From the NCBI RefSeq assembly GCF_000426825.1, contig NZ_AUGC01000007.1, positions 62,001 through 126,000 of the forward strand: DNA of 64,000 bases. The letters run 5' to 3'. A program made the translations under genes and the position numbers. The notes under the pieces were generated by a model. It worked only from the letters and a program-made list of their open reading frames with translations, searched no databases and was not told where the DNA came from. The first letter of the stretch is position 1. Every line of letters starts with the position of its first letter. Source of the stretch: Thermonema rossianum DSM 10300 (GTDB lineage: Bacteria; Bacteroidota; Bacteroidia; Cytophagales; Thermonemataceae). Shown piece after piece: positions 40,394-47,627 of this stretch.

Positions 40394-41226
40394 AGTGTCG
40401 AAGTTGTTTAAAGTTTCCTGAGTAAAATTACGGTAAAAGCCAATAACCACAAGGACTTCCAAGTTTCATCTTGGGTTTCAAAACGGACTAAAATCGCCTT
40501 GAAAGCGTCTAACCAAGCGTTGGTTCTTTCAATAGCAAATCTGTATTTGTAAAGCAAGCGGTCAAAAACATACTTTCCTTGTTTATTTTTTGATTTTCTG
40601 CCATTCTCTACAATATTGGCGATGATTTCACGACTACTGCAAAGCTTGCGAAATTCCCTTGTGTCAAAACCTGCATCCGCATTCAGAAACAACCCTTGTG
40701 TCGGAACGGACGATTTTTCTAACATTTGTAGCATACTGTTGAAATGCTCGTTTAACTTATATGCATCATGATGGTTTCCTGCCATTGGCCGGCTGATAGC
40801 CAACCGAATGCCTTGACTGTCGGTGAGCAATAACATATTGGTTGTTTTACTTTTTTTACGCCCTTGATAGCCTACCGATTCGCCTCCTCTTTTAGCCGGT
40901 GTATGGGTGCCGTCTATTTGTATACAAGATAAATCCAAGCTGCCTGCATACTTGCCTACCACCTTATTCCATACTTTTTGCCAACTGCCGTCCATGCTCC
41001 ATTTACGATAATGGTAATATACACTTTGCCAAGTGTATTTATCTTTGAAAAACTGTTTGACCGGCAACTCCCGCCATTGGCAGCCGGTCTTTAAACGATA
41101 CAGTATCGCACTGACAATTTGCCAAGCTTGAACCTTTGAATTATTCTTTCTGCCGAACGTTCAATGCGGGCAAATCTCTTTTTTATTATATCTTTGCTTA
41201 ACACCATGTCTTTTTGAGCGAACACT
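40394..41226 (-). mobile_element. IS5-family insertion sequence, about 833 bp
   Basis: Ends are set by AGTGTCG on the left and the matching inverted CGAACACT on the right (short imperfect terminal repeats), with ATT on both outer sides (40391-40393 and 41227-41229) as a likely 3-bp target duplication. It contains one DDE transposase frame. It lies between the T9SS peptidase gene and the dnd genes, at the GC-to-AT shift. Exact ends are tentative. Confidence 0.7.
40408..41207 (-). pseudogene. IS5-family transposase with a 5' frameshift
   Basis: The main frame is open from 41160 to 40408 (250 codons) and includes FGRKNNSKVQAW, the family hallmark ILYRLKTGCQWRELP and the DDE triad: Asp in QIDGTHTP, Asp in NADAGFD, Glu in FAIERTNAW. 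The natural start, ATG at 41207 (MVLSKDIIKKRFARIER), is in another frame that runs to a stop at 41091. One missing base near 41155-41162 (around GAACGTTCGG) would join them. I therefore call a frameshifted gene. A programmed shift is possible but I see no classical slippery site there. Confidence 0.75.
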
Positions 41227-41257
41227 ATTTATTTCTTTCTTCTTTACAAAAAGAAAG

Positions 41258-41290
41258 TTGGTATTCGCTCTTTTTAATTTTTTAACTTTA
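41258..41290 (+). promoter_or_regulatory. Candidate promoter for the dndCDE operon
   Basis: TTG at 41258-41260, a 22-bp spacer, then TAACTTTA at 41283-41290, one mismatch from TAnnTTTG. It is 48 bp upstream of the dndC ATG and lies just outside the IS end, so it belongs to the island and not to the element. Confidence 0.4.
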
Positions 41291-41338
41291 AACAACTTCG
41301 TCTTAAAAAGATATACCTACCAAATCAAATACAACATT

Positions 41339-42688
41339 ATGGAATTCTCACACACAAAAGTTGCTCTAAAAGATAAGCTCTACCATATAGAACAAGAAAT
41401 AATTGACCAATACATAAACGATAAGCCTAATCGAGTATGGATTGTAGGGTTTAGCGGAGGCAAAGACAGTACACTTTTACTTCAACTCGTATGGCAGGCT
41501 ATAAAAAAGCTTCCTGTTTCCGAAAAGAAACGCCCTATTTACGTAGTATGTAATGACACATTGGTAGAGAACCCTCATATCGTATCATTCATTTATGATA
41601 CACTTTCAAAAATAGAGTCGGCAGCACAGAAAGACAAGATGCCTATAAAAGTTGTCCGTACAGTTCCAAAGCTTGCCGACACATTTTGGGTCAAACTTAT
41701 CGGCTTGGGTTATCCAGCTCCAAATAAGTTCTTTAGATGGTGCACTGATCGTTTGAAAATAAACCCTACAACTCGGTTTATTAAAGAGGTAATAAAAGCA
41801 ACGGGTGGCGCTATAATCCTGTTGGGGACTCGCAGTGATGAAAGTGCTACCCGGGCTGCATCGATAAAAAAACACGAGATTAAAGGTAGCCGTCTGCGTT
41901 CCCACTCGCTACCTAATGCGTACATTTATGCTCCAATCAAGGATGTTACTACCGATGAGCTATGGCGCTACCTGTTACAAGTGCCGCCTCCATGGGGTGG
42001 AACCCATAGGCAACTTGCTGCCCTCTATAAAAATGCAAATGGAGGGGACTGTCCTTTGGTCATAGACACATCTACCCCTTCATGTGGACAAAGCAGATTT
42101 GGGTGTTGGGTATGCACAGTAGTTAAACGTGATAAATCGATGGAAGGCTTAATTGATACGGGGGAAAGCTGGATGCAACCTCTCCTCGAAATCAGAGACT
42201 TTTTAATTGAAACGCGTGACAATCCAGAAAAATGGCGGATGAAGAAGGGGCGCAATGGCAGTGAAAGAGAAGGCAAGTGGGGACCATACAAATTTGAAAC
42301 GCGTGTTGAGATATTGAGAAGGCTACTGATAGCACAGAAAGAGCTTTCTAAGGTTGATCCAAACATAAATCTTATATCGGATCGAGAGTTAGCCATTATC
42401 CAGCATCACTGGTACAAAGATCTTTTCTTTAATGTAAAAGTTTCAGATATTTATAGGGAAGTTTTACAAAAAGAGTTCTTTATGAGCAAACATGATGAAA
42501 AGTTAAAAGAAGAGTTAGAGCTGCTACTAGAAGTCTGCCAAGATGCTGAAAAAGTAAAGCTAATTGAAAACCTATTGAAGCTATACAGAAGCAAAACGCT
42601 TTATCTTCGTAAAAGAAACATTTTAAATGAGTTTGAAGACCTTATAAATAAAAATATCAATCTTCAAGAACAAGAAGAAGAAGAATAA
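41339..42688 (+). CDS. dndC: DNA phosphorothioation protein DndC (PAPS-reductase-like, Fe-S)
   Basis: The 449-aa protein starts at the ATG of MEFSHTK. The ATP-pyrophosphatase P-loop is SGGKDS at about residues 39-44 (WIVGFSGGKDSTLLLQL). Cysteines for a 4Fe-4S cluster can be seen in FRWCTDRLK and CGQSRFGCWVC near 257-265. In known Dnd systems DndC activates the DNA backbone with ATP so that sulfur from DndA replaces a non-bridging oxygen. The C-terminal third is helical and charged. It is followed after 17 bp by dndD. The AT-rich composition differs from the genes before the IS and after dndA, which suggests transfer. Confidence 0.93.
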   Translation: MEFSHTKVALKDKLYHIEQEIIDQYINDKPNRVWIVGFSGGKDSTLLLQLVWQAIKKLPVSEKKRPIYVVCNDTLVENPHIVSFIYDTLSKIESAAQKDKMPIKVVRTVPKLADTFWVKLIGLGYPAPNKFFRWCTDRLKINPTTRFIKEVIKATGGAIILLGTRSDESATRAASIKKHEIKGSRLRSHSLPNAYIYAPIKDVTTDELWRYLLQVPPPWGGTHRQLAALYKNANGGDCPLVIDTSTPSCGQSRFGCWVCTVVKRDKSMEGLIDTGESWMQPLLEIRDFLIETRDNPEKWRMKKGRNGSEREGKWGPYKFETRVEILRRLLIAQKELSKVDPNINLISDRELAIIQHHWYKDLFFNVKVSDIYREVLQKEFFMSKHDEKLKEELELLLEVCQDAEKVKLIENLLKLYRSKTLYLRKRNILNEFEDLINKNINLQEQEEEE

Positions 42689-42705
42689 CACTCAATACAA
42701 CTACT

Positions 42706-44832
42706 ATGAAAATTAAAGAGATTACATTCTGCAACTACCGAGTATATAAGGGGATAAATACCATTGACCTTAACGTAGAAAATGGTAAAAATATCATTAT
42801 TATTAGCGGCAACAATGGGTATGGAAAAACATCTTTCTTGACAGGGCTTGTGTGGTGCTTATACGGTAAGCAGATGGAAATGGTAGATGAAATGTATAAA
42901 AAAGAGGTTGATAGTCAAGGAGGATACCAAAACCTTTTTCGCAAATCATTAAATAGAGATGCTGAAAGAGAAGGCATATCAAAGTATTATGTTGAAGTTC
43001 TTATAGAAGATGTGGAGTTGGTAGATGGAATATATAATGTACGAATAAAGCGGGAATACGATATACAAGATGGTACTGATAAATTGTATATCAACTCTGA
43101 TACAGAAAACATGCCTCTTCCAGACGAAGAGTATCTGAATGAAGATAAAAATAAAGATTACTTTATTAGAGAAAATATACTTCCAATAGATATTGCCAAG
43201 TTCTTTTTATTTGATGCAGAAAAAATAGTAAATATTGCAGAACTGTCTCTTACTCAACAAGGAGAAGAACTTAGTAAAGCTTACTCTCAAATATTAGGGA
43301 TTCATAAATATGAGCAGATTAGCGACTACTTGGAGCAACTTCTGGGGAAAATAAAAAGAGAGTCAGCAAGTGCTCATGAGGTAGCTGAATTTAAGAATTT
43401 ACGAAATGAATATGAGACCTTAACGGAGATAACTATTCCGGATATAAAAGCTCAGATTGAAGAACTCAACGAAGAGAAAAGGAAGCTAAACTATCTAAAA
43501 CAACAGATAGAAAACTCTCTAATGGAAAAGGCTTTTGGATATAGTGAAGATTATATAAATGAACTTAGAAAAAAAGAAGAAGAGTTAAAACAGAAAGAGA
43601 GTGAACTCAAGCAAGAACTGCTGTCACTTTACGAGCAGACCCCGTTGGCAAGTGCAGGTAACTTACTCTTACTAATAAGAGAGAAAATAGATGCCGAATT
43701 ACAAGAAAAATGGCAAGAAGCAGCGAACAAAGATATCGATGAAAAAATAGACAAAATAATAGAAAAGTTCTGGGAAGAGTATGAAAAGCTAAATGAAGAT
43801 ATGTTTGCTCTTCACAGAAGTGTCAGAACCGCTATTGAACAAGCTATTGAACAAGCAGTACGAGAAAATCTTTATAAATCGCCAGTAGAAAACACTTCTA
43901 TTTCAACAAGCGCCTTCAAGCTTAACTATACAGAAAATCAAAAAAAAGAGGTAGAAAACCTAATAAGCTACATTACTACATCTTTCAAAGAAAGATTTGA
44001 AAAAATAATTGAAAATCGCAATATAATAGAAAACAACCTTCTTGATATAAGAAATAACATAAAAAAAGCCGAAGCATCTGTTAATACAGAAGAAACTCAG
44101 CAACTACGAGAAAAAAAGAAGCAAGTAGAAGAGAAAATAGAAAAGCTATTAAAAGAAATAGGAATCAAAGAACAACTACTGAAAGAAACTGAAAATAAAG
44201 CAAATGAAATAAACCACAGCATCAAAAAGCTGGAGGAAAGGGTCAAAACCCGTGAAGAGTTTAAGAAAAAAGAAAAGTTTATTAAAAGCCTGCGTTCCAA
44301 TCTTAACGAATTTATAAATAAGTTCCATAAACAAAAAAAGGAAACATTAGAGAAGCGGATTCTTGCAGGCTTAAAGTCACTTATGCATAAAACTAACTTA
44401 ATTGATAAAGTAGAAATTCAGACTATTGAACGCTCCATGAGTATTAAGTTATATAACAATCACGGAGAAGAAATACCTAAAAGTTCCCTTAGTAAAGGGG
44501 AACAGCAGATGTTAGCTACAGCTATTCTTAAAGGACTGGTCGAAGAAAGCGGCATTGAGTTTCCTGTATTTATAGACTCACCAATGCAAAAGTTCGATCA
44601 ACTCCATGCTACAAATATCATTGAACACTTTTACCCCAAAATAAGCGATCAAGTTGTAATTTTCCCTCTTTTAAATAAAGAGCTAACAGAAAGCGAGTAT
44701 AAAAAACTTAGCCCCTATATCGCTAAAAGCTACCTCATTATAAACAAAGATGGCAAAAGCTCTTTTAAAGAAGTAAGCCCAACAGAACTACTAAGTACCT
44801 ACAATAAAAAATATTTAACTTATGATAAGTAG
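42706..44832 (+). CDS. dndD: DNA phosphorothioation protein DndD (SMC/Rad50-like ATPase)
   Basis: The 708-aa ABC-type ATPase has an N-terminal Walker A GNNGYGKTS (about residues 35-43), long coiled coils over about 210-560, the ABC signature SLSKGEQQ (about 594-601), and Walker B PVFIDSP (about 620-626) with a following His. No CxxC zinc hook is visible in the coil. DndD is thought to supply energy or open DNA for sulfur insertion by DndC. It overlaps the following gene by 11 bp, a sign of tight coupling. Confidence 0.93.
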   Translation: MKIKEITFCNYRVYKGINTIDLNVENGKNIIIISGNNGYGKTSFLTGLVWCLYGKQMEMVDEMYKKEVDSQGGYQNLFRKSLNRDAEREGISKYYVEVLIEDVELVDGIYNVRIKREYDIQDGTDKLYINSDTENMPLPDEEYLNEDKNKDYFIRENILPIDIAKFFLFDAEKIVNIAELSLTQQGEELSKAYSQILGIHKYEQISDYLEQLLGKIKRESASAHEVAEFKNLRNEYETLTEITIPDIKAQIEELNEEKRKLNYLKQQIENSLMEKAFGYSEDYINELRKKEEELKQKESELKQELLSLYEQTPLASAGNLLLLIREKIDAELQEKWQEAANKDIDEKIDKIIEKFWEEYEKLNEDMFALHRSVRTAIEQAIEQAVRENLYKSPVENTSISTSAFKLNYTENQKKEVENLISYITTSFKERFEKIIENRNIIENNLLDIRNNIKKAEASVNTEETQQLREKKKQVEEKIEKLLKEIGIKEQLLKETENKANEINHSIKKLEERVKTREEFKKKEKFIKSLRSNLNEFINKFHKQKKETLEKRILAGLKSLMHKTNLIDKVEIQTIERSMSIKLYNNHGEEIPKSSLSKGEQQMLATAILKGLVEESGIEFPVFIDSPMQKFDQLHATNIIEHFYPKISDQVVIFPLLNKELTESEYKKLSPYIAKSYLIINKDGKSSFKEVSPTELLSTYNKKYLTYDK

Positions 44833-46387
44833 TATTCATATAAAAACATCAAAAGAAAATCAAGATAGAATAAGTACCCTAACTAAAAAAATATACACCG
44901 ATGCTCCAGAGAACCACATTGCACGTCTTGCATTGGTGCTTTCTCTGCGCACCGGAAGAAAAATAGACTTAGACACAGAAAAAAAAGATAGTGGAGGAAA
45001 GGAGTATAAAGAAGAAACATTGTTCGGCAGGTATAAAGACATCTATATAGCCTTGGTCTGTCAACACTATGGCATTTCTCCTGATGACCCCAAGCTACCA
45101 CAGTATGTAAAAGCGCATGTAGATCATGGAATAGAGCTCATATACAATGAAGTAAGTCAATCCAGTACTATTAGAGGCACAGACTATCTTCTAAAAAAAG
45201 TAACCGATGGAATATTTGAATTAACCTCTATTGATACTTTAGCTCCTACTATATCAAATACCTCTTATAACAGTATTCCAGACAAAAGCTATTTCTCTGC
45301 TCCTATTAGGATAAAAATCGGAGACTTAAAGAATGGTGAGGTAATTCACTTGGAGTGGAATAATACACAATTTCGCCCCAACTGTCATATAGCGATTGCG
45401 GGAACTTCTGGCAGTGGAAAAACAAGATTTGCCCGCCACCTCATCAAAGAAATAGTAAATAACACGAATCACCAAGTAAACTTTTTATTTATAGATTTCA
45501 AAGGCCAAGGTAGGCAACAAGAGAGTTATTCGGATCAGTTTATTAATGAAACGAACTGTGAATATAGAGATTTATCTAAAAGTAAATTTCCTATTAACCC
45601 CTTATCTATTATCAATACAATTAACGAAAACGAAAAAATATCTTCTATTCTCAGATTTATAGATATCCTTACAAAATGTAACCCTAAAATCGGTGAGGTA
45701 CAGAAATCCCATCTCAAGACAGCTATAAAAAATGCAATCGACAATTTAAGCCCAGGTGAGCCTTTAACGTTCAATGACATATACCAACAGCTTGAATCCA
45801 ATAAACCTGATAGCCTTACTGAATTAATAGAACGTCTGGCAGAGCTCCCACTCTTCGATACACAAAACAATGCAGAGGTCATCAATAAAAACTACTATTT
45901 AAGTATTCCCAGCAGCTTACCTGAAAATGTTCGAATAACAGCAGTATTTCTTGTCATATACTACATATACAACACTTTCATCCAGATGTCCGATACTCCC
46001 AACGAACAAGGTTACCAAGGAGTCAGGTTCTTGTTAGTTATAGATGAAGCACATTTTGTCTTTAAAGACAAAGCTACACATAGCTTACTGGAGGAAATCC
46101 TACGAACTATCCGTAGCAAGGGAGTTGGTATTATACTAATATCTCAAAGCATTGCAGATTTTGTGCATAGAAGCTTCAATTTAGGTAGCGCTTGCAGCAC
46201 CAATTTCCTTTTTCAACTAAAAGAACAAAAAATTCAGACTATAAGAGAGTTCGCCAATTACCCTCAGAGTTTGGACTCCAAAGTAAAACAAGCCATGGAG
46301 CAATTAAAACCGGGAGAAGCTCTTGCTAATTTAAGGAAGGAAGAAGGATATCAATTAGGAACTCCATTTCAAACTTATACCACCTAA
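44822..46387 (+). CDS. dndE: DndE fused to a HerA/FtsK-type ATPase
   Basis: The 521-aa product joins two modules in one frame. Residues 1 to about 112 match DndE: a helix ending in ARLALVLSLRTGRKIDL, then TLFGRYKDIYIALVCQHYG and YVKAHVDHGIELI. Residues about 155-521 form a HerA/FtsK-like ATPase with Walker A GTSGSGKTR (194-202), FIDFKGQG (223-230), Walker B LLVIDEAH (404-411), and sensor IILISQS (437-443). Canonical DndE is only about 110-120 aa and binds nicked DNA. The added motor suggests a DNA-translocating form. It starts 11 bp inside dndD and ends at a palindromic terminator. I vaguely recall longer DndE forms in archaeal Dnd systems but cannot check here. Confidence 0.88.
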   Translation: MISSIHIKTSKENQDRISTLTKKIYTDAPENHIARLALVLSLRTGRKIDLDTEKKDSGGKEYKEETLFGRYKDIYIALVCQHYGISPDDPKLPQYVKAHVDHGIELIYNEVSQSSTIRGTDYLLKKVTDGIFELTSIDTLAPTISNTSYNSIPDKSYFSAPIRIKIGDLKNGEVIHLEWNNTQFRPNCHIAIAGTSGSGKTRFARHLIKEIVNNTNHQVNFLFIDFKGQGRQQESYSDQFINETNCEYRDLSKSKFPINPLSIINTINENEKISSILRFIDILTKCNPKIGEVQKSHLKTAIKNAIDNLSPGEPLTFNDIYQQLESNKPDSLTELIERLAELPLFDTQNNAEVINKNYYLSIPSSLPENVRITAVFLVIYYIYNTFIQMSDTPNEQGYQGVRFLLVIDEAHFVFKDKATHSLLEEILRTIRSKGVGIILISQSIADFVHRSFNLGSACSTNFLFQLKEQKIQTIREFANYPQSLDSKVKQAMEQLKPGEALANLRKEEGYQLGTPFQTYTT

Positions 46388-46395
46388 TTAATTTG

Positions 46396-46428
46396 CTCTT
46401 GTGGAAGATATCTTCCACAAGAGTTTTC
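46396..46428. terminator. Perfect 28-bp palindrome terminator between convergent dndE and dndA
   Basis: CTCTTGTGGAAGA and its exact reverse complement meet at a central TA (46396-46423), followed on the plus strand by TTTTC. It lies 8 bp past the dndE stop and 7 bp before the dndA stop. The U-tract is better on the plus strand. Confidence 0.8.
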
Positions 46429-46430
46429 AT

Positions 46431-47627
46431 TTATAATGAAGCCAAGTCTCGGAGCTCTTTTACAGCAAGGCTTATTCTATGAACTGCAATATCTATTTCT
46501 TCTTCAGTTGTAAACTTGCTTAAAGATACTCGTATGCTTCCAGCTGCATCATCTTCTGAAAGCCCCATTGCTCTCAAAACATAAGAAGGTTCAATAGAAT
46601 GAGAACTACATGCACTACCATTACTTATAACAATCCAAGGTATGTCATCATCATCTGGGCATAGAGTAGCAATCAAAGCTTCCGAATCAATAGCCGTTAT
46701 AGCTATGTTGCTTGTATTGCATACTCTTGGAGCGGTTTCTGAGTTAATCTTTATACCATCTATAGATTTTTTTATTTTCTTTTCAAAAGAATTTCTCAGA
46801 TACTCCATTCTCTTTATATTACTTTCCATTTCTAAAAAAGCCACTTCTGCTGCCATCCCCATGCCTACAATTGCTGGAACATTTAGAGTGCCACTTCTTT
46901 TGCCTTTTTCATGTCCTCCTCCGTGTAATAAAGGAGATATCTTTAGCCGCATTCCATCAATAATTTTTTGGGTGTACCATATTCCTCCAACCCCTTTTGG
47001 TCCATGAAACTTATGCGCACTAAAGCATGCTATATCAACCCCATCTTTGTTTAAATTCACTGGAAGCTTTCCTAAAGCCTGAGTATAATCAGAAAAACAG
47101 ATAGCACCTACATTATGAGCCATTTCAGCAATCTTTTGTATGGGCTGAATAACTCCTGTTTCATTATTCACATACATAATAGCCACCAAAGCCACATCAT
47201 CTGACAAAATATCAGCTAACATGTCCAAGTCTATTAGCCCATTATCTTTTACCGGCAAGTAAGTAACACGATAGCCTAAAACTTTCTCTGCATAGGCACA
47301 TACATCCAGAATAGCCTTATGTTCTGTTTGACATGTTACTATGTGGCGCCTCTTAGTATTATCAGGAAGAACTGCTTTTATTACCTGATTAATAGCCTCA
47401 GTGGATCCGCTAGTAAAGACAACTTCTTCTGGATGCGATGCACCAACCAATGCAGCTACTTGCTTCCTTGCCTTAGCGATAGCTTGTTCTGCCAAAAAAC
47501 CAAAACGATGTCTGCTACTTGAATTAGCATATATTTCATCAAAAAACGGTAGCATAGCATTCACTACTTCGCTCGGCACTTTCGTTGTTGAGTTATTATC
47601 AAGGTAAATAATCCTACGCTCATTCAT
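46431..47627 (-). CDS. dndA: Cysteine desulfurase DndA (NifS/IscS-like)
   Basis: This 398-aa PLP enzyme takes sulfur from cysteine. The PLP lysine is K206 in SAHKFHGPKG. The active cysteine is C340 in NGSACSSHS within a short class-I-like loop. The start MNERRIIYLDNNSTTKVP is typical. As it sits convergent to dndCDE inside the AT-rich island, with no isc or suf genes near, it most likely supplies sulfur to DndC. It could also serve general Fe-S assembly. It has its own transcription; a TACTTTTG element lies on the minus strand at 47688-47695. Confidence 0.88.
   Translation of the reverse strand: MNERRIIYLDNNSTTKVPSEVVNAMLPFFDEIYANSSSRHRFGFLAEQAIAKARKQVAALVGASHPEEVVFTSGSTEAINQVIKAVLPDNTKRRHIVTCQTEHKAILDVCAYAEKVLGYRVTYLPVKDNGLIDLDMLADILSDDVALVAIMYVNNETGVIQPIQKIAEMAHNVGAICFSDYTQALGKLPVNLNKDGVDIACFSAHKFHGPKGVGGIWYTQKIIDGMRLKISPLLHGGGHEKGKRSGTLNVPAIVGMGMAAEVAFLEMESNIKRMEYLRNSFEKKIKKSIDGIKINSETAPRVCNTSNIAITAIDSEALIATLCPDDDDIPWIVISNGSACSSHSIEPSYVLRAMGLSEDDAAGSIRVSLSKFTTEEEIDIAVHRISLAVKELRDLASL

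Follow-up and report, generated by a model that had tools for sequence, protein, structure and literature searches.

The window, a stretch of 64,000 nucleotides, contains a set of phosphorothioation genes, three of which follow each other on the plus strand. The sulfurtransferase gene dndC (41339–42688) scored 438.9 bits against TIGR03183, above the cut-off, and dndD (42706–44832), which encodes a coiled-coil ABC ATPase, scored 266.7 bits against TIGR03185 (cut-off 245.85). The third gene, dndEi (44822–46387), encodes a protein of 521 aa in which DndE is fused to a HerA/FtsK ATPase, as indicated by open reading frame calls, profile matches, motifs and a structure model. With both dndC and dndD over their TIGR cut-offs, this is a dndEi operon, and the first-pass annotation was right to place the fusion in a phosphorothioation operon. 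A dndA-like cysteine desulfurase gene (46431–47627, minus strand) converges on dndEi. Its product matched the PADLOC models of DndA (5.6e-137) and SspA (4.3e-136), and scored under the cut-off of the equivalog TIGR03235. The gap between the two convergent genes is 43 bp and holds a hairpin (46395–46424) with a perfect 28-bp palindrome (46396–46423), which is probably a terminator shared by dndEi and dndA.

Just upstream of dndC sits an insertion sequence (IS) of roughly 900 bp (40399–41300). Its ends are perfectly inverted over 17 bp (40399–40415 and 41284–41300), and it carries an ORF for a DDE transposase (40408–41067). Because the TTG called as the start of dndC, at 41258, sits inside the IS, the ATG at 41339, 38 bp from the IS end, is the likely start of the gene.

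No stop interrupts the 521 codons of dndEi, whose first 11 bp overlap the 3' end of dndD (stop at 44832), just as had been read from the sequence at first. Residues 6–112 (44837–45157, plus strand) match the DndE family PF08870 with 78.8 bits (4.7e-22; cut-off 25) and the solved DndE structure 7x4e (5e-7), which bears out the DndE module proposed for the N-terminus. Against TIGR03184, the stricter DndE equivalog, the protein scored 54.2, under the cut-off of 71.85. A helix and a low-confidence linker follow at residues 113–159 (45158–45298, plus strand), and then the HerA/FtsK P-loop ATPase domain at residues 160–505 (45299–46336, plus strand). The profile matches of this half (HerA_C 1.1e-9, AAA_10 3.9e-9, FtsK_SpoIIIE 1.1e-8) agree with the claim that a full P-loop ATPase continues in frame. 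Among anti-phage proteins, its best match was the C-terminus of the PADLOC DndH (4.9e-25, profile positions 1296–1637 of 1678). A nuclease domain is absent from DndEi.

The motifs lie where the first-pass annotation had put them: Walker A (GTSGSGKT) at residues 194–201 (45401–45424, plus strand), Walker B (LLVIDEAH) at residues 404–411 (46031–46054, plus strand), and ILISQS beginning at residue 438. Across 56 homologues, G194, G199, K200, the Walker B residues I407 to H411 (DEAH), R428 and the sensor Q442 are invariant, and R431 is kept in 55. R428 and R431 are candidates for the arginine finger, and the stretch from there to Q442 in ISQS covers 46103–46147 (plus strand). DndEi therefore has the HerA/FtsK hallmarks, with Walker A and B, a sensor-1 glutamine where strand 4 ends and, shortly before it, an arginine; the sensor glutamine and the upstream arginine define the HerA/FtsK clade (PMC10853773). 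An AlphaFold2 model, built from the 56 homologues, had a mean pLDDT of 83.7, with values below 50 in the linker at residues 136–150. The solved structure closest in fold to the modelled ATPase was the DndH C-domain (7es4; E 2.2e-19, target-length TM 0.80), and VirB4 and HerA came next; a PDB sequence search with DndEi returned 7es4 and 7x4e as top matches. The suggested kinship to DndH/DptH motors is thus supported by both sequence and fold.

As the genome is a draft of 24 contigs, an assembly error or a frameshift could in principle have joined dndE to an adjacent ATPase gene. The second species of the genus, in a separate genome, carries at this locus an intact fused orthologue with 89% identity, and therefore the fusion is not an assembly accident, as already judged in the first-pass annotation. 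A nearly constant junction, with 78–86 residues between residue 112, where DndE ends, and Walker A in the 56 homologues, also argues against such an artefact, whose probability we consider negligible. The gene order at the sister-species locus is the same (M28 peptidase gene, dndC, dndD, dndEi, convergent dndA, and a gene of 430 aa), and from dndC onward the DNA of the two species is about 85% identical. The IS is missing there, and in the genome G395 only 83 bp separate the upstream gene from dndC. The insertion, so close to the dndC ATG, might have taken away the promoter, leaving an operon that is decaying or silent and a fusion protein that is rarely made. This we regard as unlikely, since all four genes are intact and, together with the DNA identity to the sister species, this means that selection probably acted until recently. 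Furthermore, an IS can also supply a promoter.

A natural split between DndE and ATPase was considered for one relative (G431), in which the two modules seemingly belong to two genes. A transposase gene lies between them (L100:6074–7204), and this is therefore an insertion into a fused gene and no natural split. In both species of the window's genus, the G+C content of the dnd block is below that of its flanks, with 33–39% (41258–47627) versus about 49–51% in the window and 33–40% versus 46–50% in the sister species. This suggests that the block was acquired horizontally before the two species diverged.

The fusion of DndE with an ATPase is an already known form, DndEi. Zheng et al. (JBC 2016, 291:1492) gave it this name, and the title of their article describes its helicase activity as essential for phosphorothioate modification and its ATPase activity as stimulated by GAAC/GTTC DNA. 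It was reported again from Bacteroidales (Prevotella, Bacteroides), as a DndE with an additional helicase domain (PMC7464106), and as HerA/FtsK clade-3 ATPases fused to DndE, beside a DndD-related ABC ATPase (PMC10853773; Rakesh, Aravind, Krishnan 2024). In the latter study, the DndE-fused ATPases are relatives of one of six DndH ATPase groups. The first-pass annotation had presented the fusion as new, and had named a survey of DndE lengths as the measure of its novelty. In an even sample of 395 Bacteroidota genomes, DndE was found in ten, and in five of these it was fused (open frames of 511–542 codons), which comes close to a common known variant. While the fusion need not be pursued as new, the survey is of value in showing that, in Bacteroidota, roughly every second DndE protein sampled has a motor of its own.

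A scan of GTDB retrieved 224 relatives, of which the best 80, nearly all from Bacteroidota, were compared in detail. Their matches span both modules, from residues 1–5 through 506–521, and in 79 of them dndEi comes after a dndD, whether intact or in fragments. Full-length matches among these 80 include relatives from Weeksellaceae, but no locus named as Riemerella. The characterised DndEi reportedly came from Riemerella anatipestifer, a member of the Bacteroidota whose family includes Chryseobacterium and Apibacter, and deleting its extra domain is said to have abolished modification. The Chryseobacterium and Apibacter proteins are about 38–39% identical to the window protein over the whole length. 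Identity to most members is 35–41%, and in the DndEi tree the window protein groups with that of the sister species, apart from the others on a long branch. Judged by its sequence, the window protein is a divergent lineage of DndEi. Carriage by mobile elements was also considered and rejected: searches of plasmids and phages turned up nothing closely related to the fusion and only distant matches, on plasmids at 23–29% identity (several of them TraC) and in one unannotated phage record at 21.5% over residues 29–513.

Behind dndEi, the 80 loci differ in their accessory genes. A DndB-type gene was present 3' of dndEi in 38 loci, usually past a variable small gene, and a ParB-like gene in 14 loci, 13 of them with a partner of 320 aa (p320). 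Over the DndEi tree, at least eight swaps between these accessory pairs took place. Within the fetched DNA, dndA was present in 21 loci, usually on the opposite strand. The window locus is the bare set of dndCDEi and dndA, in which neither pair adjoins dndEi, and the same is true for the genus. This swapping, and the genus with neither pair adjoining, are a further value of the survey. In the window's genome, DndB was not found with two models, and neither was a separate DndH in a search in which the positive controls were detected; the p320 family and the DndF model had no match there, in searches run without a positive control.

In most DndB-type loci, a variable gene of 140–210 aa, belonging to no known family, lies between dndEi and dndB (L012:11567–12142 and similar genes); two examples had no match in Pfam. 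The p320 proteins, of about 320 aa, are encoded after the ParB-like gene (L020:6595–7563, L030:7943–8923, L058:12688–13674, and ten more), and matched no Pfam or PADLOC family above the cut-off. Predicted with AlphaFold (pLDDT 87), their fold has a weak similarity to that of MspJI, a modification-dependent restriction enzyme (Foldseek E 3.8e-3, probability 1.00, TM about 0.3), and the residues E148, D212, Q232 and K242 are invariant. From this modelled fold, p320 is a candidate restriction nuclease partner.

Taken together, DndEi is very probably a core part of the phosphorothioate writer, in the known Bacteroidota form of DndE that brings its own HerA/FtsK-family ATPase. The basis is the presence of both domains, the intact catalytic residues, the operon context and the wide conservation. 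The DndE part, with the ABC ATPase DndD, would bind the target motif, and DNA binding would stimulate the C-terminal ATPase. The latter may then remodel or separate the strands at the target site, where DndC would insert sulfur that the cysteine desulfurase DndA provides. HerA/FtsK proteins are usually translocases of double-stranded DNA, and therefore the "helicase" of DndEi could mean remodelling and not unwinding. By analogy, we infer that the divergent window member would act like the characterised DndEi; its target motif and assembly state would likewise follow by analogy. Against this explanation stands that the comparison was with proxies of the characterised DndEi, at about 38–39% identity, from which the window protein is set apart on its long branch.

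The first-pass annotation had gone further and proposed that modification and a translocase or sensor function are merged in one protein. The motor is indeed present. That it works in defence, as a translocase or sensor restricting unmodified DNA, would fit with an ATPase closest to the restriction protein DndH and with a genome in which separate DndH and DndB were not found. However, DndEi itself gives no indication of restriction and is without a nuclease domain, and in its relatives the fusion adjoins separate accessory genes, either the DndB pair or the ParB-like gene with p320. The published activity of DndEi is moreover reported to be required for modification (Zheng et al. 2016). We therefore find such a dual protein very improbable. 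Equally remote is the idea that, in this genus, dndC-dndD-dndEi-dndA suffices without DndB or a linked restriction module, and that phosphorothioation owes its biological effect to the DndEi motor itself, which might, for instance, clear or block incoming DNA that is unmodified.

Compared with known systems, the ATPase half has its top sequence and fold match in the C-terminal ATPase of DndH/DptH (7es4). DndH, however, is a large multidomain protein of about 1,700 aa, with a nuclease (REase) and other domains before the ATPase (PMC10853773), whereas the partner of the window ATPase is DndE and no nuclease is attached. HerA and the VirB4/TraC ATPases share the P-loop fold, the DEAH Walker B and the glutamine sensor, but their similarity is lower, and no secretion or NurA/SIR2 context is present at the window locus. 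With the clade-3 fusions (PMC10853773), compared by their description, no difference was found: a HerA/FtsK-DndE protein next to a DndD-type ABC ATPase, akin to one DndH ATPase group. DndEi itself (Zheng et al. 2016; PMC7464106) differs in that the window member is divergent, on a long branch and without an adjoining DndB or accessory gene, but has the same architecture, a single polypeptide in which an ATPase/helicase domain comes after DndE, in the same phylum and beside dndC and dndD.
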